A stretch of DNA of 31,675 bases. Origin: a virus. Below the pieces are notes generated by a model that saw nothing but the letters and a program-made list of their open reading frames with translations, did no database searches and was not told where the DNA came from. The number at the start of each line of letters is the position of its first letter. Position 1 is the first letter of the stretch. Of this stretch, positions 1 to 28,949 are shown piece after piece. The position numbers and the translations under genes are program-made. Location of the stretch: the IMG/VR virus record IMGVR_UViG_3300030098_003523, positions 1 to 31,675 of that record; one strand, written 5' to 3'.

Positions 1-3000
1 GGAATATTAGAATCAGTTGCAAACTCCCAATTATGTCCAAATTGCATACATAAAGGTCCAGGAAGATCAACGTTCATCGGTTGTGGTCCTCTAAATAATA
101 CACCCATTGCTGACTGAGGAAAACCACTAACTATTCCTGCTACATAAGAGTTATTACAAAGTTCAGAGGCAGCTCTTATGATGCATTGTAATCTGCTTCT
201 ATACCATATTGTATCAAAATCAACTGGTCCAGGTGTATATGTTGTATTACTATCTTCATTATAAGTAAACTCTCCATACTCTAATGAGTTATCTGCTAAT
301 TGGCTATACTGTTCATCTTGACAACATAAACCTGCATTCTCTCCATCTTCATTAAAGAAATATCCGTCTGGACAATGCGGAGTTTCTGCTGGCCCTGTTT
401 TAGTTGTTAAGAAGTGATTCAAGCTTGGTAGCGTAAGCTCAGGATGCCAATCATGGAATGATAACCAACCTTGTATCTTAGGATCATAACTTACTGTCCA
501 TGATACATCTCTAAAATATTCAGGATCATCTAAAGAAACAACTGATCCAGATATTGTTATTTCAGGTTCTGTAACTAAAGTACAACCACATGTAATTGAT
601 GTTGGTGTATCTGTAAGTCCTACACTATCTATTACTTCAAAGCCTGGTGGACAATCTGGTACAACAAGTGTGCCATCAACATAAACTTCATTTAAATTTG
701 GATCCCAGTATCTTTCTGGTGGTGGACAAAATCTTTGTACTAATCCATCTATCATATCTCTAATAGCATCACTATTAAAATTACCTGTTGCTACATTTTG
801 ACTTTTAGGATGTGATGCATATTGTTCAAAGTAATCTATTTCTTGAGAAGTAACAGCACCATCACCTGCAGCTTTAAGATATATAGGATACACGGTAAGT
901 TCTCCCCACTTATCAATTACCTCTTGTTCCTGATAAATAACTTTTCTATTATCTGATGCAATTGGGTTTGTACCATTTATATCTCCAATAACAAAATTAT
1001 TCCACCAAACAGCTAACTCACTGCCAAGTGCAGAAGGATCAGTGTTATCAGCAATTGTACTAATACCATAAGGTCCTTCATCACATTCAGAATAAGGAGC
1101 CCAATTACTACCCATTACAGGTGTAGTATATATCTTACCTTCTTCACCATATTCATCAACTGAATAATCAAAAGGACTTGTAGGAATAACAATACCTACA
1201 GCAGCATCAACCGCATAATATTGATCTAAATGATTTTTACATCTTCCTCTACCAACATACCCACCATCTAAACCTTTAAAACGTACAGTTTCAGTACGGG
1301 CATATTGTGCATCTGTATCATCAATACCCGCAGCATCATTAGCATCAGAAATTTCATTCTGATCCATAAATCCATTTATTTGCCAGCCTCTTATATAATC
1401 CTCTAAATCACAACCACCCATATTTCCATCAAACTTACATGCATCATCCACTGCATTATTTAATTGTCTATTTTGTAAATCACTACTTCCAGGAAATGTT
1501 AAATTAGGTCTAAGAGTATGTTGAAATGGTGGATTGTTTGGAAGATCTACCATTACACCAGCATCTGCAAGAGGTGCTGATGTTGATGGACTATTACCAA
1601 TATTACCTAAACCATCAGTTACAAAAATTAATAATTTTTGCACACCTAGCCTAGCATGTTCATAGCTAGGTTGTACGTCAGAATTATAATCTGGTTGGAA
1701 AGTTTGACCATCAATGTCCCATCCTGGATTATAAAGCATATCTAATCCATCCCATAATCCTGCAGCATGATTTGTTAACCCAGCATTAAAATTTAATGAT
1801 TGATAATAGTTATCTATCCAATTTAATGCGGCATTTATTGATGGTAACATTTGCATAGGACTAGGTCCATCAACTTGAGTATATGGATCTCCAGCAAAGG
1901 TAGTCATTCCAATTTGTCTATATGACCAACCTACAAAACCAATTCTTACATCACCGCTTTCTATACCAGGTCTAAATCCTGGATTGTCTTCATCAACAAC
2001 TACAACACCACCTTCTACTTTATGACCTACAAGACCAAGAAGTAATTGACGCATATCATCTTCATTAGAATTTTCACTTATACTTTGAGAAGCATCAACT
2101 GATACAATAATATCTAATGGACATGGTGTTGGTTCTGGTGTAACCCATCCTCCTTCATATTGAGTAAAGCCTTCTGTAAAACTTGACTGAAGATATATAG
2201 TATCTGTACACTGACATACAAACTCACCTTCATCATTTTGTATTAACTCAGTATCAGGTGGACATTCATATTCATATGCATCTTCTATATTACCACCATT
2301 ACATAATACTTCATTATAAATAAAACCTACACCTGGCTGGTATGCCATACAATCAGGATTTATAGGTTCAAAGTCTCTTTTACAGAAATAAACAATATCA
2401 TAGTTAGGATCATATACAGACTGACATCCTACACCTACTACCGGATTATCAATTATTTCATCAAGTTGTTCTATTTCAGGGAATGATGCTAATAGTCTAG
2501 ATGGTAAGTATTTATTAAACCATTGCTTCATTCCGTTATTTGCAATGTTAGTTATACCTTGACCACCATATTGGAATACCTTACCTTGTGCTTGTGATAT
2601 ATAAAATAAACCTGAAGGAGTATTAATAACACTTCTTGCACTTTCACATGATCCATATTCATGTGGTAAATCTGCATTAGTTACATTTGTTTGTGGTATA
2701 GAAGAAAATAATCCACCATCTCCAATTGTAATTTTAGTGTTTAGATCTGTAGTTAATTGATCTACACCTTGAAACATTTGTGGAGATAAATGAGGGAAAA
2801 ATATTATAGCTCCATTCTTAGATATAGGTTTAATTACATTTACTTGATTTTTAAAGTCTTTATAATTGTTAGGTAAGAATACTCTCCAGAAATCTAACTT
2901 AGCTTCTTTCTGAGCTTGTAATGAATACATTAACCTCTTTGGATAATGTGTATAACATTTCTCAGCAGTAATAGGATCATAGTCTCTAGGTTGTATTACA

Positions 3001-6000
3001 CCAAAAGATATAAGCTGAGAAAATAATTTACTTTTTGTTAGTGACGTATCATACTTATAAAAATTACCATCCTTAATTATCTTAGCATCAAACAATCCTT
3101 TAATATCTGTATTCTCTAACCAATCATAATGTCTTTCACCATCTCTATCCTCCCAATCTCTAAGTGCCATGTTTAACTCTGACTCAACAAAAAAGTCTTG
3201 TATACCATTAGAATGTGTATACATATAGCCTCTTTTATGTACAAATAATCCACCTAGACCTAAAGAATCATTTCCTGCACCACCACCTTCATCATCATCA
3301 TCTATATTATTAGCACTTACATCTAAATTATAATAACCAGATGGTAAAGGAGCACCAGTACCAAATCCACCATCATTAGAAAAATCAAAATTTAAATTTA
3401 TTAATGGAGCAACAAAAGCAGACATGTCATACTTTTCTGTGTTCATCCAAAACATAGGACATGGAGAGTTTTGTCTCATTTTATAGTTATAAGGAAAACC
3501 ATCAGGTTGTTCATATAAGAAATCCCAAAAGAATGGTTTTATACTCTTTTCTGTATATCTTGCAATATAACAATCACCACCAAATAATAACTGAGTAGAA
3601 AATGCTGTTTCAGTATCTATGTTAATTACGTTAATATTAGAATCATATTCAGGATCAAAATAATCTATACAACCTCTAATTGGTATTTGTCTAATACCAT
3701 CTATTTGTCCATACTGATTATCAAAGTTAACTTTTAAACCTCCGTAGTGAGCTGCAACACGTCTAACAAAAAAGTCACCAGTATTATCATCATTAAAAGA
3801 TGGTATAGCCTCACTCATTAAGAATCTAGAATTATCAGTGACACCCGCACCCCAATTTTCTGGTAATGTTAAATTTGTACCATCATCATCATCTCCAGTT
3901 TTAATAACTACTGTCTTTGGTCTAAATAAATTATTTACTTTATGTGTTGAATCTATATTTTGAAAACTATCAGCTACATATCTTGCCTTATCAATAGTAG
4001 CTCTAAAATTATCTGTTACACTATATTTTCCACCAGAAGGTGAATTGTTAGCAACATAAAAACCATGTCCATTATATTTAATAGCATGTTGCTGATAACT
4101 AGCCATGTTATAAATTAGATCAATTATAACTTGTCCACCATCTGCCATCAAAGTTAAAAATGACATAACTGATTGTGCTATTTCTATTGCACCAGGTAAT
4201 GATTTAAATCTACTACCTTTATGTTCAACTTGTTTTTCTGGACCTTCACTACCAGGAACAGTTTTTGCAACTTCTTGCTGTGCTTTTCTACTTTCATCCA
4301 TATATCTTTCTTCCGAAGCACCTGGACCTGCAATAGAACCAAAAGTCATTTGAGATTCCCTACCTACAAGAGGCAGAATATTAGTTGATGGTGCTTCACC
4401 TGTTGCACCACTAGGATAAGTATAAGCTGCACCATCAGGAGTAGTGCCTGCTTGTCCTACTATAGCACCTCCCACTGTATCATCTGCAGTTTGTGCTCCA
4501 GCAGCTTGATCACCAGTTGCTTCAAAATATTCATTATTTGGAGAATCTGTCTGCCCTTTTTCTAATCTATGATCACCACCAAAACCATGATTCCAATCAT
4601 TGTCATCTTCTTGTGTTCCTCCAAAATCACTTTGCTGTTGAGTTATAATTTGAGGACCATAACTTAAACCATATGTAGTAGTTGTTACATCAACATCAAC
4701 AAAAAGACCTGTTAATCCACCAGTACCTGTTGTATATGCTTCTGTTCCTCCACTAACAGTAAACCCTTGTTCTGTTATTTGTCCATGCTTTATATTATCT
4801 TTTCTTTTTTTCTTATTATCATAGATAGGTCCTGGATCTTTAGCTACAGACTTTACTTTAGCTTCTTTCATTTTAACAACTCTTTCACCACGCAGTTGTT
4901 GTATAGCATAACCTGCACCAATAATAGCTGCTATAATAGCTGAAAAGTTTCTTAGAAGTTTTGCGCCAGGATGTTCTTCTGATACAACAAAGTTACCTAA
5001 TGACTTACCGCTACTAACACCATAGCTTCTTACTTCAAAAGGATTTAAATAAACTCTGTTAAAAGATGTTTCAGGAGAATGGAATGTATAAAAATCTTTC
5101 CTAGATACTTTTCCATATGCATCTCCTTTTTTATCAGCACAACCATTAATAGTATGATATGGATCATCTCCATTGTCATTAAAAGGAAAGTTAGCTATTA
5201 ACCCTACTGTTCCACCTTCATTATCATTATCTAAGACATACTGTCTCATATTTCTTAAAAGGCCTTTTGCTATAATAGATTTATTTCCTTCTCTTGCTCC
5301 CACAAGTATTTCATATCCTACTAGATTAGGAATAGGTTGTCCTTGATTATCTGTTGGCCAAAATATATTTGTAAACTCTACACCTAATACATATATTGAT
5401 TGACCATCATTAGAATTCCTTTGTGTGGTCCCATTTGGATCTGTAAGTTCATTAGGCATTTTATGATGTCTAATATTTTTACCACATAGATCAGCCCACC
5501 TAACTGGATCTGTTGCAGGATATCTTTCTGTAGATTGCCAATAACCCATTTTACCTTTAGAAACAACTACACCACCATCATCAGTTACTGAGTTTATAGC
5601 AACTCCTGGTAATGTTGATTCAACTGAGGCTGTATTATAAACTCTCCAGAAAGGTTCATTTGTAGAAAGTACATTACCACCAGCAGCTAAGTCTCTTGTT
5701 TCATCATCTTCTGTACCATTTCCAAAAAGTCCTGTACCAGCTTCTGATGTGGTATTAGGTGGTCTACCTGGTATATGGTATGAAGAAGATCTTTCACCTG
5801 TATTGTAAACAAACCTTATAAAGAATGCATATTGCTCATCCCTCATAAATGTAGGTTTATTACCACCATTGTAATAATAATCTGCAGGATACTCTGTAGA
5901 AACCCAATGTGTTTGTATGTTATTTGCTATAGGTTGATAATTAAAATCAAAGTCTTCATATGGACCTTGTCTAATAAGATAGTCATTTACAACATACATC

Positions 6001-6941
6001 TTATCAGACTTTTCAATAACTGGTAAGCTTAAAGGTATAGTAGATAAAGGTACTGATTCTAGTTTTTGATCTATAAAGTCTAAACCAATTCTAGTTTGCT
6101 CAGTGCTATATAAACCAATTTTCTTAGCTTGCATTTGTCCTTGATTATTACTAACAATAACCAACATATAAAATTCAAATTCTTTATCTAAATTTGTTAC
6201 TTCTATATCTAAGGATCCTGCAGTGTCTTCATGATCAAATAAAGGTTGAACATTTGAAATACCTATAAAGTCTCCAACCTTTTGTTCATTAACTGTATAA
6301 GCAATAAAAGCTTGATATGATCCATTTCTTAATTGACCTCCATCTTTATTCTTATTAATTTTTACACAAGGTACATCAACTAATGGTGCTAAACGTATCC
6401 ATTCACAATTAAGTCTTTTAGGTTCTATTGGAGCATATGTAATACAATCTGCGTTTTCAGTAGATGTAACTTCTAACTGCCATGGTATACGGTCTAAATT
6501 AAGAGTTCTAGAAGGATTATTACCATCATCCCAATATACTTGCCAAGAGCAATCAAAATTTTCTTTAGAAGCTCCTGTTATTAAGTGTAGTTTATTAAAG
6601 TTTAAACAAGGATCATTAACAATAGTTTCATATGTACATTCACTATCATCAAACATACCTATTTCACTACTTGTATTGTCTGTTGAATATATAACCCATT
6701 TATCTCCGTAAAGATATATAGTTCCAATTATTGTATATGGTACAACACCACATTGTAAATTAGCAGGTTCATTACCAACTGTACCTACATCACCATCCTT
6801 AGAATTATTTATTAAGTTACGGGCATGACTCCAGTTCTGCTGTCCCACCAAGGAAGCATTAGGATCCTTTGTCATACCTTTAACAAATAAATCTGTATCG
6901 GTCTGAGATGTATTTTGTGGTTGAAACTTTTGATCTGCCAT
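1..6941 (-). CDS. Giant crAss-like tail muzzle/stabilisation protein with inserted VWA domain (C-terminus beyond the window)
   Basis: The frame is open from the ATG at 6941 to the window edge (over 2310 codons), so the stop lies outside. Residues about 1-450 have the style I know from crAss-like tail stabilisation (muzzle) proteins: an early LFVKGMTKDPNAS motif, NEPAN near 55, YSTDNTSSEIG near 80, and FMRDEQYAFFIRFVYNTGE leading to SYHIPGRP near 365-393. A hydrophobic helix (SAIIAAIIGAGYAIQQL) lies near 661-680, followed by a basic stretch and a Gly/Thr-rich low-complexity linker to about 880. Muzzle-type sequence continues to YDPNYDIVYF near 1510. It resumes near 2125 with SWTVSYDPKIQGWLSFHDWH. 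The roughly 600 residues between them hold a VWA domain: DASQS at 1616-1620, GLTNHAAGL with T1723, and VTDG with D1776. The gene follows three connector genes after an 11-base gap, as expected for a protein at the distal tail. The muzzle role is inferred from family resemblance; the VWA motifs are directly visible. Confidence 0.82.
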   Translation of the reverse strand, partial: MADQKFQPQNTSQTDTDLFVKGMTKDPNASLVGQQNWSHARNLINNSKDGDVGTVGNEPANLQCGVVPYTIIGTIYLYGDKWVIYSTDNTSSEIGMFDDSECTYETIVNDPCLNFNKLHLITGASKENFDCSWQVYWDDGNNPSRTLNLDRIPWQLEVTSTENADCITYAPIEPKRLNCEWIRLAPLVDVPCVKINKNKDGGQLRNGSYQAFIAYTVNEQKVGDFIGISNVQPLFDHEDTAGSLDIEVTNLDKEFEFYMLVIVSNNQGQMQAKKIGLYSTEQTRIGLDFIDQKLESVPLSTIPLSLPVIEKSDKMYVVNDYLIRQGPYEDFDFNYQPIANNIQTHWVSTEYPADYYYNGGNKPTFMRDEQYAFFIRFVYNTGERSSSYHIPGRPPNTTSEAGTGLFGNGTEDDETRDLAAGGNVLSTNEPFWRVYNTASVESTLPGVAINSVTDDGGVVVSKGKMGYWQSTERYPATDPVRWADLCGKNIRHHKMPNELTDPNGTTQRNSNDGQSIYVLGVEFTNIFWPTDNQGQPIPNLVGYEILVGAREGNKSIIAKGLLRNMRQYVLDNDNEGGTVGLIANFPFNDNGDDPYHTINGCADKKGDAYGKVSRKDFYTFHSPETSFNRVYLNPFEVRSYGVSSGKSLGNFVVSEEHPGAKLLRNFSAIIAAIIGAGYAIQQLRGERVVKMKEAKVKSVAKDPGPIYDNKKKRKDNIKHGQITEQGFTVSGGTEAYTTGTGGLTGLFVDVDVTTTTYGLSYGPQIITQQQSDFGGTQEDDNDWNHGFGGDHRLEKGQTDSPNNEYFEATGDQAAGAQTADDTVGGAIVGQAGTTPDGAAYTYPSGATGEAPSTNILPLVGRESQMTFGSIAGPGASEERYMDESRKAQQEVAKTVPGSEGPEKQVEHKGSRFKSLPGAIEIAQSVMSFLTLMADGGQVIIDLIYNMASYQQHAIKYNGHGFYVANNSPSGGKYSVTDNFRATIDKARYVADSFQNIDSTHKVNNLFRPKTVVIKTGDDDDGTNLTLPENWGAGVTDNSRFLMSEAIPSFNDDNTGDFFVRRVAAHYGGLKVNFDNQYGQIDGIRQIPIRGCIDYFDPEYDSNINVINIDTETAFSTQLLFGGDCYIARYTEKSIKPFFWDFLYEQPDGFPYNYKMRQNSPCPMFWMNTEKYDMSAFVAPLINLNFDFSNDGGFGTGAPLPSGYYNLDVSANNIDDDDEGGGAGNDSLGLGGLFVHKRGYMYTHSNGIQDFFVESELNMALRDWEDRDGERHYDWLENTDIKGLFDAKIIKDGNFYKYDTSLTKSKLFSQLISFGVIQPRDYDPITAEKCYTHYPKRLMYSLQAQKEAKLDFWRVFLPNNYKDFKNQVNVIKPISKNGAIIFFPHLSPQMFQGVDQLTTDLNTKITIGDGGLFSSIPQTNVTNADLPHEYGSCESARSVINTPSGLFYISQAQGKVFQYGGQGITNIANNGMKQWFNKYLPSRLLASFPEIEQLDEIIDNPVVGVGCQSVYDPNYDIVYFCKRDFEPINPDCMAYQPGVGFIYNEVLCNGGNIEDAYEYECPPDTELIQNDEGEFVCQCTDTIYLQSSFTEGFTQYEGGWVTPEPTPCPLDIIVSVDASQSISENSNEDDMRQLLLGLVGHKVEGGVVVVDEDNPGFRPGIESGDVRIGFVGWSYRQIGMTTFAGDPYTQVDGPSPMQMLPSINAALNWIDNYYQSLNFNAGLTNHAAGLWDGLDMLYNPGWDIDGQTFQPDYNSDVQPSYEHARLGVQKLLIFVTDGLGNIGNSPSTSAPLADAGVMVDLPNNPPFQHTLRPNLTFPGSSDLQNRQLNNAVDDACKFDGNMGGCDLEDYIRGWQINGFMDQNEISDANDAAGIDDTDAQYARTETVRFKGLDGGYVGRGRCKNHLDQYYAVDAAVGIVIPTSPFDYSVDEYGEEGKIYTTPVMGSNWAPYSECDEGPYGISTIADNTDPSALGSELAVWWNNFVIGDINGTNPIASDNRKVIYQEQEVIDKWGELTVYPIYLKAAGDGAVTSQEIDYFEQYASHPKSQNVATGNFNSDAIRDMIDGLVQRFCPPPERYWDPNLNEVYVDGTLVVPDCPPGFEVIDSVGLTDTPTSITCGCTLVTEPEITISGSVVSLDDPEYFRDVSWTVSYDPKIQGWLSFHDWHPELTLPSLNHFLTTKTGPAETPHCPDGYFFNEDGENAGLCCQDEQYSQLADNSLEYGEFTYNEDSNTTYTPGPVDFDTIWYRSRLQCIIRAASELCNNSYVAGIVSGFPQSAMGVLFRGPQPMNVDLPGPLCMQFGHNWEFATDSNI

Positions 6942-6952
6942 TACAAACTATT

Positions 6953-7870
6953 TTATCTTCTTGGTGCGTGACTTCTAAACATATCATAATAATTACAATA
7001 TTGTGCTTTTCTATTAACTTCCCAAATTTTTTGCATTTCTTTAAAGTCAGGTGTATTAATAAAACCTAATGCATTGTTTCTAGAAGCTCTAAGTCTTTGT
7101 TCAATTAAAGCTAATTGTTGTGATGCTCCTGCCTCACCAGCAAAAACCATATTCTCTAATATTCTTTGTTTTAATGCATACTCATAATATTCATTACAAT
7201 ATGGATGATCTAAAACTAATAAATTACCTTCCTCATCTTCCATTGCTCCTAAATAATTTAAATAAACTTTACCAGCCTCAAAACTTGTTAATAAATATCC
7301 GTCTTTTATTTCAGCAATATCAATTGCCTTTTGATTTATATTTGGGCAATCACATTGTACAGAACTACCAGCTCTTATTGTTAAAGGAAAAAATCTAGTA
7401 TATGTTCTATACTCTTCAGCACCTACATATTGAATGACCATATATTCTTCATGACCTGTGATCGTTCCTCTAGCATCTTTAATTGGACATGCTTGAACTA
7501 CACATACATCTTTACATGTAGGATCATCACATGGTCCTATATCTCCACCATCTGGAGATGGTACATACTTTGGATGTGTTGTATCTATGTGTGTTCCTGA
7601 AGGTGGTGTATTAACTACTTTGTAATCACCACAAACTAAAGCATAATTAAGGTATTGAAAATCTGTAGGAAGTTTACCTTTTTTATGAGATATATCAATT
7701 ACTGCATCTTTAGTTCTATTTATTCTTAAACCTAGATCATAGTTTACACGTGTAGCCACTTTAATTAACTGTTGTGGTTCAATCATACCTTCTAGTGCTT
7801 GACTAGAAAAGTCAATACTAACATCATTTAGTAACTGATCAAAAGTTCTATATTTATGTGATAGTGCCAT
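6953..7870 (-). CDS. crAss-like tail ring/connector protein (305 aa)
   Basis: The N-terminal half resembles a short structural protein of crAss-like phages: a helical opening (KYRTFDQLLNDVSIDF), then GMIEPQQLIKVATRVNYDLG, then KGKLPTDFQYLNYALVC. A central segment (about 95-180) is cysteine-rich, with CDDPTCKDVC, QACP and CDCP. The C-terminal part has HPYCNEYYEYALKQRILENM and an Arg-rich helix. The start ATG shares its A with the stop of the preceding gene (TAATG), so translation is probably coupled. It is the third of three short genes lying between the phosphoesterase and the muzzle gene. In the known crAss-like tail, several ring proteins stack between portal and muzzle; which ring this would be cannot be told from the sequence. 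A virion role is well supported by context, the exact position is inference. Confidence 0.65.
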   Translation of the reverse strand: MALSHKYRTFDQLLNDVSIDFSSQALEGMIEPQQLIKVATRVNYDLGLRINRTKDAVIDISHKKGKLPTDFQYLNYALVCGDYKVVNTPPSGTHIDTTHPKYVPSPDGGDIGPCDDPTCKDVCVVQACPIKDARGTITGHEEYMVIQYVGAEEYRTYTRFFPLTIRAGSSVQCDCPNINQKAIDIAEIKDGYLLTSFEAGKVYLNYLGAMEDEEGNLLVLDHPYCNEYYEYALKQRILENMVFAGEAGASQQLALIEQRLRASRNNALGFINTPDFKEMQKIWEVNRKAQYCNYYDMFRSHAPRR

Positions 7871-9125: not shown

Positions 9126-10334
9126 TTAGTCAGGAGAATATGTTAATTCACATATGTTGCCTTTATTGTAATCATGTAATTCTATTACACCAGATCTTTT
9201 TGATCCAACAAATTTGTTATGATAGTGCCAATAATCTGTTCTAGAAAGACTTGGAAGAATCTTTAACATAAAACCAGTACGTTCATTTGTAGTTATATAT
9301 TCTACTTTCTTTTTGTGGTGTAAATGACCAGTAAACAGTGTTCTATTTTTTGTTACACCCCATTGCTGTGAAAACTCTGTAGCATAAAGTAAAAGAGAAT
9401 TTTTAGTATTTACATCACCATGTTCAAATGCAAAAAAGTTATCACCCCAAGTATACACTTTTCTTTCAAGATATGTTGTATCCCATAATATATTCGGATC
9501 ATCTATTGCTTTAGATAAAGCATGAGCTAAATGAAATGAAGATAATCTATCATGGTTACCTGGTATATAAACAACTTGCAGATCTTCACAATACTGCTTT
9601 ATAAAATTAATACTCCAATACATTGCATCAAAAGCTTGCATGTATGCATCCGTAGCAGTAGAACAATTATCTAGTGGTGTTCCACTAGTTGTAGTACCAG
9701 CCCAACTATCCATATTCATAAGATCACCACCTACAACATAATATATTTTTTTAAGATTATGACTTGCATGTGCTCTTTCCACTAGATCCATTATAGTTTC
9801 TTCAAAGTCTTTATCTATAGTTTCATTACCTTGTTTTCCAAAATGAATATCTTGTAATGATAGTATAGCACACACATCTTTTTTACTTTGACTTTTAATT
9901 CTTTTAACTGGTGTAAATTTCTTTGGTTTCCAATTATCAAGTAATTGTTCTATGTGAGCAGTATCATCATTTTTAAGCTTTGTAATTAAAGCTGATATAC
10001 GCCAATGATCTGACATTTGTTTATTCCAATATTGTGACAACTTCCATTGCGTTGTATCAATATTTAATATTTGTATAATTTCTTCAGGAGATTTAGGTTC
10101 TGTATGTGATATTCCAGTAACTTTTCCTTGACCTTTTTCAATATCATATGATGATGTACAATCATCTGTAACATATCCCATGTCTCTCTCTTCTTTTCTT
10201 TTTTCTCTTTCTTCTGCATAAATTTCTTTTTTTACTTTATCAAATTCTTCTTCAGTTATCCCTAATCTTTCTGCACAATATTCAGAATTTTTTTTCCACT
10301 TAAGTGCATTTTTTACTTTTTCTTTTAGACTCAT
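9126..10334 (-). CDS. Calcineurin-like metallophosphoesterase (402 aa)
   Basis: The signature motifs of binuclear-metal phosphoesterases appear in order: DIH at 162-164, GGDLMN with D204, GNHD at 259-262, FEHGD with H305, and GHLHH at 336-340. These supply the two-metal site of the family (phosphodiesterases, phosphoprotein phosphatases, Mre11/SbcD-type nucleases). The N-terminal 150 residues are charged and helical, with a possible small helix-turn-helix (AERLGITEEEFDKV, 21-34) and a Lys/Glu-rich segment at 35-55; they resemble no domain I can name. There is no partner with SbcC/Rad50 features in the window. It sits alone between a terminator pair and the connector genes, with its own upstream motif, inside an otherwise structural region. 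Substrate unknown: nucleic acid, a nucleotide signal or a virion component are all possible. Confidence 0.9.
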   Translation of the reverse strand: MSLKEKVKNALKWKKNSEYCAERLGITEEEFDKVKKEIYAEEREKRKEERDMGYVTDDCTSSYDIEKGQGKVTGISHTEPKSPEEIIQILNIDTTQWKLSQYWNKQMSDHWRISALITKLKNDDTAHIEQLLDNWKPKKFTPVKRIKSQSKKDVCAILSLQDIHFGKQGNETIDKDFEETIMDLVERAHASHNLKKIYYVVGGDLMNMDSWAGTTTSGTPLDNCSTATDAYMQAFDAMYWSINFIKQYCEDLQVVYIPGNHDRLSSFHLAHALSKAIDDPNILWDTTYLERKVYTWGDNFFAFEHGDVNTKNSLLLYATEFSQQWGVTKNRTLFTGHLHHKKKVEYITTNERTGFMLKILPSLSRTDYWHYHNKFVGSKRSGVIELHDYNKGNICELTYSPD

Positions 10335-10447: not shown

Positions 10448-10473
10448 AAAAAAACCTCCACGCTTCGCTATGG
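10448..10473 (-). terminator. Possible first terminator overlapping the stop codon of the 207-residue gene
   Basis: On the minus strand CCATAGCGAAGCGTGG can fold with a GCGAAGC core, and AGG plus seven T residues follow. The TAG stop of the 207-residue gene (10468-10470) lies inside the hairpin. The stem is short and imperfect, but the T-run is good and a stronger terminator follows 30 bases on, so this would be a tandem pair. Confidence 0.45.
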
Positions 10474-11091
10474 TAATGTGATATATAAGTTAGTTGAAGA
10501 TAAACCATTAATAGTAAAACCATTAACAACTGTCATAACTTGAAATATATATGTCTGTCCTGATACATATGGGAATACACTTGATGGTATAGTATATGAA
10601 TTATTGTTTACAGGTATAATAGGATTTGTTATAATGGTAAAATTATTTGGTTGTTCTATTGTAGAATATCTAATTGAAAATCCATCTACTGTTCCAAGAG
10701 GTGCATCAATAACACCACTATATCCCCAATTTAAAGTTATACTAGTAGATGTTACATCTGTAGCAAATAAAGGTGTAACAGCTATATTATTATCTAAAGC
10801 TTGAGTAGATTGTGCTCCTAGTACTAACATTAACTTTTGCATAAATGATTCTAGGCTTTCTCCATGCACCATACAAAAATTTTGTCCATTTATCTCAACA
10901 CAATTCATTGTATTCTCTACACCCCTACAATTCTTAACACATTCTAGACACTGAATATCTTCACAAGTATTAAAAACATCTGTACAACCTTGACCAGCAT
11001 AACCTGTTAAACAATTAGCAGGTATAGTAAATGCTGTGTCTTTACAAGCACATGGTGATGAAGTAGTATTTCCGCATTGATTACAAACCAT
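10468..11091 (-). CDS. Small cysteine-rich protein with a C-terminal fibronectin type III domain (207 aa)
   Basis: Residues 1-74 contain twelve cysteines, including CNQC, CAC and CLEC, and no hydrophobic signal peptide. After a helix (about 75-100) comes a fibronectin type III-like domain to the end: TSTSITLNWGYS, a DGFSIRYS strand, YTIPSSVFPYVSGQTYIFQV and a final strand ending in LYITLP. The FN3 part has no cysteine, so the two halves are separate modules. FN3 and related Ig-like folds on phage virions usually serve as decoration or weak adhesion domains. It is 18 bases after the 1199-residue fibre gene and in the same unit, so a fibre-associated or tip protein is plausible. No homologue is recognised by name. 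Confidence 0.7.
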   Translation of the reverse strand: MVCNQCGNTTSSPCACKDTAFTIPANCLTGYAGQGCTDVFNTCEDIQCLECVKNCRGVENTMNCVEINGQNFCMVHGESLESFMQKLMLVLGAQSTQALDNNIAVTPLFATDVTSTSITLNWGYSGVIDAPLGTVDGFSIRYSTIEQPNNFTIITNPIIPVNNNSYTIPSSVFPYVSGQTYIFQVMTVVNGFTINGLSSTNLYITLP

Positions 11092-11109: not shown

Positions 11110-14100
11110 TTAACATCCACTACATATTTTTACATGATCCCAGAATGGTGATCCTGCAGTCTTATATTGAGCAACAGCTCTACTAGAACTAGTAGTTCCA
11201 TCATATACTGCATACCATCTATCATTGATTAACTCATCATTCTTTGTACCACCTGCTGAAGTAACATTACTAGTATTACCTCCTTGTATACTACTAAATG
11301 CTGGTACAGATGTATCAAATAAAGTTCCTGTACTATTATATATTTCTACAGTGCTAGCATTTAAAGTCTCAGCATCAGTGCATGCAGCATCACAAGCTGA
11401 AGCTTGACCAAATTGATAATGACCATGACTATCCATTCTTTGTACTAAAGGTAAAGTAATAGCACAATTAGTACCTATATAGTCTAGACTTAAACCAAAT
11501 AAACTAGCAAGAACTTTTTTAAATGATAAGTTTGTTGTAGCAAAGTCATCATCAGTTTCCATTGCCATAAATGGTACAAATCCATATTCATGTAAACCTT
11601 TTATAGTTCTACCTTCTGTTGCAGTAGTTCCTGTATACGGTACAGATACCGCAGCTACTCCTGTTTGTAAGAATCCTTGTAAGTTAATTGGATAAGTATT
11701 ACCTCCTGTTACAAGACCTTTAAATTCTCTCTCTACAACTGTAGTTCCAAATAAAGCACCTGCCATTTGTAATGCTGTAGCAGCTGATTCATTATTATTA
11801 CCATCAATTATTGGCATTAAAATATGTCTATATTTACCAGCACTAAATTGAGTATATGTAACACTATTAGAAGTTCCCCATGGAGTTCTTTTAGCAGCAT
11901 CATAGTCTAATAAATCTAATAAAGCTTCATAATCTTCTTGATACTTAGTTGTACCAACACCTCCATTAGTAGTTGGTTGACTTGTAAATCCAGCACCTAA
12001 TGTAGAGGATCCATAAGTACCATATGAAGAAGTAGAAGCTGTTATACTTACTACATATGCAGATGCCGGAACAGGAGCTCCGTATGCTGTAGCACTCCAA
12101 TATGGTGGAAGAGATCTAACATTATCATACCACTGACCATCTGATGGTGTACCAGCATGCGTTACACTACCTGATGCACCAAGTTTCATATCTACTAATG
12201 CTTTTGTATGTTTTAAATAATCACCAGTAGTAGCTCCTGTAATAGGTATATAATATATAGTACCTGTCCATGATGAACATATAGCTTGTATATCTGTTTT
12301 AACAGCCTCAAAAGATTGTTTAATCTTTAACCCTGTTGCATATGATGTAGTATTAGTATCTATAAATACATAAATGTCTGTATCTTTATTTGGTAATGCA
12401 AAAGTTTTTTGTACAGGAACTAAGTTATTTACTTTAGCACCACCACTATCACAATCAGTAACTGCCTTTGCAACAAATGAATCTGCTCTCCAATCTGTAT
12501 CTGTTGTTTGTGTATTAGCATATCTAAACTTAGCAATCTTTTTGTCTAGCTGTGTTGTAGCAACAGATGTTCCATATATAGGTGAATTATTTAAACTCCA
12601 TGTAGGAGTTTCATCATCTTTTGTATGACCAACTAGTTGACTATGAGTATCTATTCCTGAGTTTGAAACTGCATAATAAGGAAAAGAATCAGTTCTACCA
12701 TATTCAATTCCAGATATAACACCATCATATCCTCTTATGTAATAAGATTTACAATCACAACAAGCAACAACTTGACTTACTTGCTTTGTAGTATTATCAA
12801 TTAATCCGTAAACATAATAACTAACATTAGTAGGTGATATTATAGATCCAACATATTCCCAACCACTTTTTGTATCATTACCATCAATAACACCATATCT
12901 TGTAGATACAGGATATGAAGTTGTACCACACATTATTGATTGTGTTGGATTATTACTTACAAATGTGCCATATGAAGTTATATCTCCAGCAGAAGATGTA
13001 GTACCATCTTGAGAAACTCCATAATAGATACAAACATTATTAGAAGAATCAAAACCTAAAATTGTTTCTTTTACAGAATCTGCTGCACCTAATCCATCAT
13101 TATAACAAGCAATCTTTAATTGACCTGCTCCTTCTCTAAGATCTCCATACTCAGTTTTAAAATCATCATATTCTATAGCTGCAGTTGTACAAGCCGGTAC
13201 GCTTGTTGTTATTTTACTTTTTGCACAGTCAGTTGTTGTTCCTCCTGTAGGACTAGTTAATCTAGGATAAATAAAATATGATTTACCTGAATCTAATCCA
13301 GAAACAGTATTAGTTCCATATCCTGATGGTTTATCATACATTTGCACATTAACTTCGTTTTCATTAGTATCTTCTACAACTATTTCTAATTTATATTTAC
13401 TAATAGCAGCACTTGCAATAAATGAATAACTAAATCCAGTATTAGTAATCCCAAATGTTGTTATTGGTGTACACTTACTAGAATTATCTAAAGTTTGTGA
13501 AATTGTTCTTGCGCATTGTGAAGAACCATCTGTAAAACAAAAATCTACAATTATTTCAAAGTTACTTGTAATATCTAAATGTCCTAAATTACCAATAACA
13601 AAACCACTTTCATTATTAACAAATTGACTTACCTGTACATAACGTGTTATAGAGTTTAAACCTTTATCTTTTATAGTAACTTTAGTTCCTTTACCAGTAG
13701 GACTACAATCTGTCCATGTTGTATCAGGTAACTTAGTGCCCATAAAATCTATTACAATACCAGTTACTACATCTACAGCATCAGTTCTTAACCTTGGTTT
13801 AAAATCATAAACCACATCACTACATTGTGTACTAATTAAACTTTTCTGTATATCAGTTAAACTTTTTCTTACATCATCATGTGACATCCAAAGGTTACCA
13901 ATTGAATCAGCAAGATTAGAAGGATTTACACTCCAACCAGGTATTGCAGACATTGTCCCAGTTCCATTAAGTCTTTTCTCTGCATTAAGACCCTGTGGTT
14001 GTTTTCCTGTAGCAGCTGAAATAGAAGAAGTTCCTCCCACTGCTTTTCTATGCACACCATAGTTTTGTTCTAGTTGTGCTAACATAACCTGCATATCTAC

Positions 14101-14709
14101 AGGTTTGCCTATTTGATTACCAACATATCTAGGTACAACCTTTGGTGGTACATATGTTGTTTTTACTTTTCTTTCTACATTTTTAACTCTTTCATCTAAC
14201 TTAGATAAATCAGTTCTCATCCTGTGAGTGTTTGTACAACATTCACATAGATAAGCAGCCAAAACTTCTATAGCCATAGCTAATCCAAAGCTTTCAGGCT
14301 GTTTCATTGGATGTAAATCCTCTATAGTATTTTCAAGACATTTATAAGGAGTTAAATCAACAGTACATTGTGATATTATACAATGATCATGCATGTCTTC
14401 CATTAAAGTACAAAGCTCTGCTGTTATAAGATCTACAAGACCTGTAAAATCTTCTGGTGTAGTACCAGTTTGTTCTGTAAGGCAAGCAAAATTAAATTGA
14501 GTAATATCTAAGTCTGCACCCGTTTGATTATTTATACCAGCTAATATATCACATAATTGCTCACCCATCTTTGCAATAACAGCACTTACTGTATCACCAT
14601 TACATAGGTTTAAACAAGGAATATCTGGTCCTTGCCAGATTACACAGTTAGAAGAAGTAGATGTTCCACATCCATTATTATTTCTATGACCTAAATTACT
14701 TGGTATCAT
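11110..14709 (-). CDS. Large fibre/adhesin-type virion protein with a degenerate VWA-like region (1199 aa)
   Basis: The N-terminus has a Cys module (CVIWQGPDIPCLNLCNGD, 22-39) of a kind I associate with fibre-type proteins of Bacteroidota phages, followed by helices with further cysteines and an amphipathic coiled-coil-like segment at about 160-183. This is probably the part that anchors it to the virion. Residues about 300-530 are beta-rich with FN3/Ig-like strands (YKLEIVVEDTNENE, GLDSGKSYFIYPRL). A region at about 775-1000 begins with DIYVFIDTNTTS (D784, N786, T788), a variant of the VWA DxSxS motif after a hydrophobic strand, and later has RHILMPIIDGN (D969), comparable with the VWA TDG strand. 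The C-terminal 200 residues are Gly/Ser/Thr-rich and strand-like, ending in KICSGC. It starts a unit preceded by the recurrent promoter-like motif. Fibre role is inferred; the VWA reading is tentative. Confidence 0.7.
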   Translation of the reverse strand: MIPSNLGHRNNNGCGTSTSSNCVIWQGPDIPCLNLCNGDTVSAVIAKMGEQLCDILAGINNQTGADLDITQFNFACLTEQTGTTPEDFTGLVDLITAELCTLMEDMHDHCIISQCTVDLTPYKCLENTIEDLHPMKQPESFGLAMAIEVLAAYLCECCTNTHRMRTDLSKLDERVKNVERKVKTTYVPPKVVPRYVGNQIGKPVDMQVMLAQLEQNYGVHRKAVGGTSSISAATGKQPQGLNAEKRLNGTGTMSAIPGWSVNPSNLADSIGNLWMSHDDVRKSLTDIQKSLISTQCSDVVYDFKPRLRTDAVDVVTGIVIDFMGTKLPDTTWTDCSPTGKGTKVTIKDKGLNSITRYVQVSQFVNNESGFVIGNLGHLDITSNFEIIVDFCFTDGSSQCARTISQTLDNSSKCTPITTFGITNTGFSYSFIASAAISKYKLEIVVEDTNENEVNVQMYDKPSGYGTNTVSGLDSGKSYFIYPRLTSPTGGTTTDCAKSKITTSVPACTTAAIEYDDFKTEYGDLREGAGQLKIACYNDGLGAADSVKETILGFDSSNNVCIYYGVSQDGTTSSAGDITSYGTFVSNNPTQSIMCGTTSYPVSTRYGVIDGNDTKSGWEYVGSIISPTNVSYYVYGLIDNTTKQVSQVVACCDCKSYYIRGYDGVISGIEYGRTDSFPYYAVSNSGIDTHSQLVGHTKDDETPTWSLNNSPIYGTSVATTQLDKKIAKFRYANTQTTDTDWRADSFVAKAVTDCDSGGAKVNNLVPVQKTFALPNKDTDIYVFIDTNTTSYATGLKIKQSFEAVKTDIQAICSSWTGTIYYIPITGATTGDYLKHTKALVDMKLGASGSVTHAGTPSDGQWYDNVRSLPPYWSATAYGAPVPASAYVVSITASTSSYGTYGSSTLGAGFTSQPTTNGGVGTTKYQEDYEALLDLLDYDAAKRTPWGTSNSVTYTQFSAGKYRHILMPIIDGNNNESAATALQMAGALFGTTVVEREFKGLVTGGNTYPINLQGFLQTGVAAVSVPYTGTTATEGRTIKGLHEYGFVPFMAMETDDDFATTNLSFKKVLASLFGLSLDYIGTNCAITLPLVQRMDSHGHYQFGQASACDAACTDAETLNASTVEIYNSTGTLFDTSVPAFSSIQGGNTSNVTSAGGTKNDELINDRWYAVYDGTTSSSRAVAQYKTAGSPFWDHVKICSGC

Positions 14710-28661: not shown

Positions 28662-28949
28662 TTAGTTCAAGTGTGATATCTTACAAACCACTCCTGATTC
28701 TGATAACAACAAATGCTTTTCTCCATTATGCATAAATTCTTTTGCATTTGTATGCTCTAAAATCCATTGCACATGATCTCCTTCATTAAATTCATCACTA
28801 ACTTTACTACCCTTAGAAATAATAGTTCCTTTGGGTATTTGTTGAATTTGTGATTCAGGAAGTAAAATTCCAGACTTTGTTGTTTCTTTTACTGGCACAG
28901 GTTTGACTAATAAATTGTGGCCAACAGGTGTTACTTTTAAATGTTCCAT
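28662..28949 (-). CDS. GroES-like co-chaperonin (Cpn10, 95 aa)
   Basis: The length and motif order are those of GroES/Cpn10. The chain begins LKVTPVGHNLLVKPVPVKET, followed by KSGILLPES, which corresponds to the mobile loop that contacts the chaperonin ring (GroES has a similar Gly-hydrophobic triplet). GTIISKGSKVSDEFNEGDHV matches the barrel strand with the typical G-D-x-V turn, and HLLLSESGVVCKI matches the closing strand. In GroES such proteins cap the host GroEL chamber; phage T4 gp31 is a known co-chaperonin required to fold its capsid protein. The gene sits between an unknown gene and terminase, in the same operon as portal, so help with folding of a virion or packaging protein is likely. 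No GroEL gene is present in the window, so it would act with the host ring. Confidence 0.87.
   Translation of the reverse strand: MEHLKVTPVGHNLLVKPVPVKETTKSGILLPESQIQQIPKGTIISKGSKVSDEFNEGDHVQWILEHTNAKEFMHNGEKHLLLSESGVVCKISHLN

Follow-up and report, generated by a model that had tools for sequence, protein, structure and literature searches.

In phage crAss001, the tail terminates in a hexamer of the muzzle protein gp44, whose distal crass domain contacts the cell in the view of the authors who described it (Bayfield et al., 2023; PMC10172136). The IG2/crass region of gp44 ends at residue 1021, and length variation has been described for the crass and IG2 regions of the protein rather than for its C-terminal propeller (PMC10172136). 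The protein analyzed here is homologous to gp44 over nearly its full length and is encoded in the same ring-type tail gene neighborhood, but it carries an insert with a predicted von Willebrand factor A (VWA) domain, whereas gp44 has tight turns at both of the insertion sites described below and is devoid of VWA.

VWA domains with a complete MIDAS bind ligands via a metal ion, as established for the I domains of integrins. These I domains and the pilus tip adhesins SpaC, PitA, and GBS104 share with the phage domain the fold, the complete DxSxS...T...D signature, and a position as a module within a larger surface protein. They differ from it in being cellular and about 12–18% identical, and the phage domain contains approximately 190 extra residues and sits in a tail nozzle. 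The BACON domain occurs as a tandem repeat in another crAssphage protein, without a metal site, and is not a muzzle insertion. The tail-region protein that harbors it is likewise fast-evolving and equipped with a putative binding module (PMC6949934). A VWA-like domain is also encoded by crAss001 (annotated in gp52), although in a separate gene outside the virion block and not in the muzzle. Finally, VWA domains are found among the exchangeable modules of the tail-derived fibers of eCIS, for which target binding has been proposed (PMC12923769), but these are tail fibers of contractile injection systems rather than a podovirus-type nozzle.

In the literature searched, neither VWA domains nor module exchange had been described for crAss-like muzzles, in agreement with the original prediction for this locus, made from the sequence, which knew of no described crAss-like muzzle with a VWA domain. 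A full-text search (few subscription journals, no bioRxiv preprints) returned no paper joining crAss-like phages and von Willebrand domains, save one text naming Crassvirales and VWA once each, and the accessible portions of papers mentioning the muzzle describe no such inserts.

The muzzle gene and its neighborhood

The window, i.e. the whole stretch of 31,675 bases that was analyzed, is a virus record with genes on the minus strand, where a block encodes the terminase, portal, major capsid, tail ring, and muzzle proteins. The terminase and the portal matched PHROG families (E-values of 9.9e-65 and 2.8e-89, respectively), and crAss-like phages ranked best for TerL among the named phages in the matches listed. 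The muzzle gene (3..6941, minus strand, as for all muzzle features given below) encodes 2313 residues matching PHROG virion structural families (1.9e-40), the C-terminus being removed by the contig end. A longer, 99.9% identical record, IMGVR_UViG_3300030330_003182, provides the C-terminus absent from the window and indicates a full-length protein of about 2880 residues. This second IMG/VR assembly is identical to the window at 99.94–99.99% over 16.9 kb, and an assembly chimera was rejected on this basis. The muzzle gene adjoins the gene for tail ring protein 1 (6953..7870, minus strand; PF24228 CrAss_Ring_1, 35.1 bits for a cut-off of 27), as in crAss-like synteny.

A profile of relatives with empty insertion sites was aligned with the crAss001 gp44 family with an hhalign probability of 100 (E-value of 2.6e-56, 1208 columns), residues 24–1676 of one relative (L028) matching residues 1–1371 of gp44. 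Judged by this homology and by its CrAss_Ring_1 neighbor, the window protein is a Crassvirales muzzle of the gp44 family. Its conserved core, residues 1–1525 (2367..6941), would comprise the ring-joining, propeller, IG, and crass regions according to the homology with gp44. Sequence searches of the PDB with the muzzle profile or with the csAssE-Sib muzzle returned no muzzle chain. In csAssE-Sib (L003), a TnpB family gene and a gene annotated as Ro sixty-related protein are located beside the muzzle gene. The muzzle genes of cr273_1 and cr109_1 (L091 and L092) contain many in-frame stops in the standard code but are open when TAG is translated as an amino acid; this reading of TAG has been reported for some crAss-like groups.

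Three other genes were noted along the window. Positions 9126–10334, in the structural block, encode a protein of 402 residues in which motifs resembling those of calcineurin-like phosphoesterases were noticed (GGDLMNMD, PGNHD, and GHLHH). A small protein encoded by positions 10468–11091 has a C-terminal fibronectin type III-like domain (E-value of 1.3e-4, below the cut-off), and a 95-residue protein encoded by positions 28662–28949 reads like a GroES-type co-chaperonin.

The slot 1 insert and its VWA domain

Conserved muzzle sequence stops near residue 1525 and resumes near residue 2134, close to the limits originally proposed (near 1525 and 2125). The intervening segment, designated slot 1 (528..2366), comprises 613 residues as delimited by script, versus 25–100 in most relatives; it is shorter than 110 residues in 66 of 85 non-redundant muzzles and corresponds to a tight turn in gp44. 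Thus, the VWA domain has been inserted cleanly into a muzzle of the crAss-like type. The range initially assigned to the domain, 1500–2400, contains its first part but falls short of the whole insert. A Cys-rich linker of the CPP..C.C type (2124..2366), in a form common to other slot 1 inserts, precedes the VWA domain (residues about 1607–2072; 726..2123), which is followed by a second Cys linker (CPPGFEV...CGCTL; 543..725). Beyond the insert lie a conserved middle block (VSLDDPEYFRDVSWTVSYDPK..HDWHPE..NHFLTTK; 387..542) and the beginning of a second slot (3..386). As seen in the longer record, the module of slot 2 is jelly-roll-like (CBM-like) and not a VWA; the window phage combines a VWA in slot 1 with a jelly-roll-like module in slot 2.

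All five MIDAS residues are present in the window muzzle, in motifs located exactly where the original prediction had placed them: D1616, S1618, and S1620 in DASQS (residues 1616–1620; 2082..2096), T1723 in GLTNHAAGL (residues 1721–1729; 1755..1781), and D1776 in VTDG (residues 1774–1777; 1611..1622). DASQS and VTDG each follow a hydrophobic strand, and T1723 is located in the second loop, as in VWA domains of the MIDAS type. In an alignment of 31 related VWA sequences, they are kept in 29, 30, 29, 27, and 31 sequences, respectively, of which only the last three positions (S1620, T1723, and D1776) are unbiased because the sequences were chosen by a pattern touching the first two. The mean column identity of this alignment is 18%. 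Judged from these sequences, the VWA metal site is under constraint, indicative of strong purifying selection. By analogy with integrin I domains, the MIDAS of the muzzle VWA would bind a metal ion.

A Pfam scan of the full-length muzzle protein returned no family match. For the isolated window segment, VWA (PF00092) was the only Pfam family matched, below threshold (16.0 bits, E-value of 0.015, cut-off of 23.8). Relatives with a VWA in the same slot exceed this cut-off (L043, 28.8; L067, 31.0; L007, 26.0; and L008, 25.7 bits). A profile built only from VWA domains present in the other slot of relatives, without the window sequence, scored the window segment at 32.3 bits (E-value of 4.6e-9), the best of 200 shuffles reaching 2.5 bits. 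AlphaFold2, run with the 31 related VWA sequences, predicted a Rossmann-type core (pLDDT 85–95) with the VWA order of strands and helices, the fold ending with a strand and a helix at residues about 2015–2071 (window about 730–900). This model superseded an earlier one obtained from eight inserts, which was poor (mean pLDDT 45). The leading Foldseek matches in the PDB were VWA/I domains (ITIH1, factor B, the integrin alpha-1 I domain, SpaC, and PitA), with probabilities of 0.93–1.00 and modest E-values (about 3e-3, none below 0.001). Whole-model TM-scores were low because approximately 190 residues following the VTDG strand were predicted without confident structure (1023..1604; model residues 188–381, pLDDT < 50); this segment, within the VWA domain, corresponds mostly to gaps in relatives.

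Together, the motifs, the predicted fold, and the profile score indicate that the slot 1 insert holds a VWA domain with a complete MIDAS, as originally proposed. Were the resemblance due to chance or to a chimeric assembly, the muzzle would have no VWA of its own, and the silence of the full-length Pfam scan and the sub-threshold score of the window segment would be accounted for. The independent profile, the relatives scoring above the cut-off, the predicted fold, and the second near-identical assembly reduce the probability of this explanation almost to nil.

Module exchange at two slots

A search of IMG/VR for the muzzle core yielded 77 loci, and one for the conserved C-terminus yielded 535 relatives, 80 of which were kept. 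The 85 muzzles compared are non-redundant at 90%. GTDB genomes contained only three relatives, all on metagenome-assembled contigs. The single insert of the window, used as query, matched the near-identical record only. Slot 2 is located approximately 40 residues beyond slot 1, between NHFFTTK and WRHNxRCD. An estimate that only about 15 relatives carry an insert was rejected, since it counted slot 1 alone and slot 2 was evident in the alignment consensus.

At least one VWA with an intact MIDAS was found in 55 of the 85 muzzles, usually in slot 2. The domain is therefore not peculiar to the window phage. Slot 1 was empty in 66 muzzles and held a VWA in 10, a VWA without MIDAS in two, a PA14-like module in three, another module in three, and a linker in one, the names PA14-like and CBM-like being based here and below on weak Pfam matches (E-values of 0.0045–0.086) and sequence pattern only. 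Slot 2 held a VWA in 51 muzzles, was empty in 10, and contained a PA14-like module in seven, a Cys linker only in six, another module in five, a VWA without MIDAS in three, and a zincin in three. In muzzles L071, L074, and L029, slot 1 is occupied by a jelly-roll-like module and slot 2 by a reprolysin-type zinc metalloprotease (L071:16049-17986, with the motif HEIGHNLGASH; L074:15797-17773; and L029:16091-18280), for which the PF13688 scores are 57.9, 25.7, and 39.9 bits, respectively.

In L013 and L018, the slot 1 domain (L013:14639-15955 and L018:14636-15928) is VWA-like but has lost DxSxS, the rest of the domain being kept, and slot 2 contains an intact VWA. Slot 2 of L104 (5547-8000; 818 residues) contains PA14-like and VWA-like domains in tandem, with Cys-rich linkers between them. 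The linkers of the modules are Cys-rich (CPPGY...C.C), for example in slot 2 of L030, L104, and L110, and give weak matches to cEGF (EGF-like), above the cut-off in one linker (L110, 28.2 bits). Loss of the MIDAS in L013 and L018 and the absence of any module from several relatives indicate that the module is not essential.

Modules are lost, gained, and exchanged whole between close relatives. On a tree of the conserved muzzle parts, slot contents change at least nine times for slot 1 and at least 17 times for slot 2. The clearest example is offered by the muzzles of L014 and L062, which share 77% identity over the core, 97.7% over the middle block, and 89% over the C-terminus. The similarity of their slot 1 contents is confined to the initial 35 residues, which form the Cys linker, and the module is PA14-like in one muzzle and a VWA in the other. 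Comparison of L062 and L058 revealed the same kind of replacement in slot 2, and comparison of L034 and L032 revealed a clean loss of the VWA with retention of both linker ends. The reading frame is intact in every complete muzzle compared, and the close pairs examined retain the ends of the linkers. The high turnover and the existence of relatives with empty slots would also be accounted for if the slots were permissive recombination sites and the modules near-neutral passengers. Retention of the MIDAS residues at so low a mean identity, together with preservation of the frame and of the linker ends, makes this interpretation very improbable.

The Cellulophaga phage phi4:1, cultured on Cellulophaga baltica, has a muzzle homologue, gp42, confirmed as a virion protein by mass spectrometry, whose slot 1 accommodates approximately 300 additional residues, indicating that the slot 1 site is old. 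In contrast to the window insert, that of phi4:1 is not recognizably a VWA (hhalign probability < 1, no Pfam match); it is related to a domain of a virion-region protein of 1100–1300 residues of the clade (E-value of 9e-12). In the window, a domain at positions 11590–12429 (TDIYVFIDTNTTS...YYIP), in ORF 11110–14709, resembles the phi4:1 insert (L002 10942-11751) and looks Rossmann-like. A second VWA was suspected in the 1199-residue protein encoded by this ORF but was not confirmed on testing.

Proposed role of the slot modules

In the profile alignment, slot 1 corresponds to the tight turn at about residues 1198–1203 of gp44 and slot 2 to the turn at about residues 1234–1235. Both slots are therefore located in the C-terminal β-propeller, as the IG2/crass region ends upstream of these positions. 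No description of propeller slots was found in PMC10172136 or elsewhere in the literature searched. The original prediction was right in assigning the domain to the muzzle, but its placement of the domain where the phage meets the cell has to be tempered, since the domain maps to a propeller turn (gp44 about 1200) and not to the distal crass domain. From this location, the modules may extend sideways, inward, or in the direction of the barrel. The VWA domain may plausibly be exposed to the cell surface.

In cells, many VWA domains serve to assemble complexes. The muzzle VWA might likewise be an assembly or stabilizing module, its MIDAS binding a neighboring muzzle subunit, a ring protein, or a tail fiber rather than the host, and the location of both slots in the propeller, where neighbors are close, is consistent with such a role. 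We consider it unlikely, as the modules are dispensable and are swapped for unrelated folds between flanks that are 89–98% identical, which would not be expected of a fixed interface, and as the slots also accommodate carbohydrate-binding-like modules and proteases. The modules might also bind targets other than receptors, such as extracellular matrix, surface polymers, or habitat particles, thereby holding the phage where hosts are. The Foldseek matches to matrix-binding VWAs (ITIH1, VWF A3, integrin I domains, and mussel PTMP1), the mixture of VWA, PA14-like, and CBM-like modules, and the near confinement of the clade to uncultured viral contigs (535 in IMG/VR versus three in GTDB) are compatible with this role. 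Nothing specific argues against it, although the tail-tip position favors contact with the cell, and we regard it as rather improbable.

We favor the interpretation that the muzzle slots display exchangeable modules binding the host surface, the VWA being probably a metal-dependent adhesin. The muzzle of the clade would act as a display platform, in which entire folded modules, with Cys-rich linkers on either side, are mounted in two turns of the C-terminal β-propeller, one at gp44 about 1200 (slot 1) and one at about 1235 (slot 2). Because gp44 is a hexamer, six copies of each module would surround the tail tip or nozzle. A divalent metal ion coordinated by the MIDAS would mediate binding to an acidic residue of a surface protein or glycan of the host. 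The modules would thus be exposed on the outside, engage a ligand, and participate in adsorption, to which their contact would add avidity or specificity; this contact could also help trigger opening of the muzzle. Loss, gain, and exchange among close relatives would be as expected of host-range determinants, and host-surface recognition fits the combination of interchangeable binding or protease modules, a fixed mount, and rapid turnover. A receptor-binding role of the VWA would also be in keeping with the modules that replace it, which are other surface-interaction modules, namely PA14-like, CBM-like (weak Pfam matches), and reprolysin (57.9 bits). More tentatively, the nozzle of this widespread environmental clade could be a two-slot receptor-binding rack, in which metal-dependent VWA adhesins, lectin-like folds, and zinc metalloproteases are interchangeable cassettes fitted into propeller turns of the gate for DNA ejection, so that recognition of the host or proteolysis at the surface would be coupled directly to opening of the gate.

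Crassvirales are abundant, and little has been described of how they recognize cells. If the slots display host-binding modules, the muzzle, seen as a conserved gatekeeper, would double as a rapidly evolving recognition device, and host range would be predictable from what occupies the two slots. Adhesion of the MIDAS type, familiar mainly from integrins and pilus tips, would join the binding tools of phage nozzles, and reprolysin-type proteases would be shown to form part of a phage tail tip.
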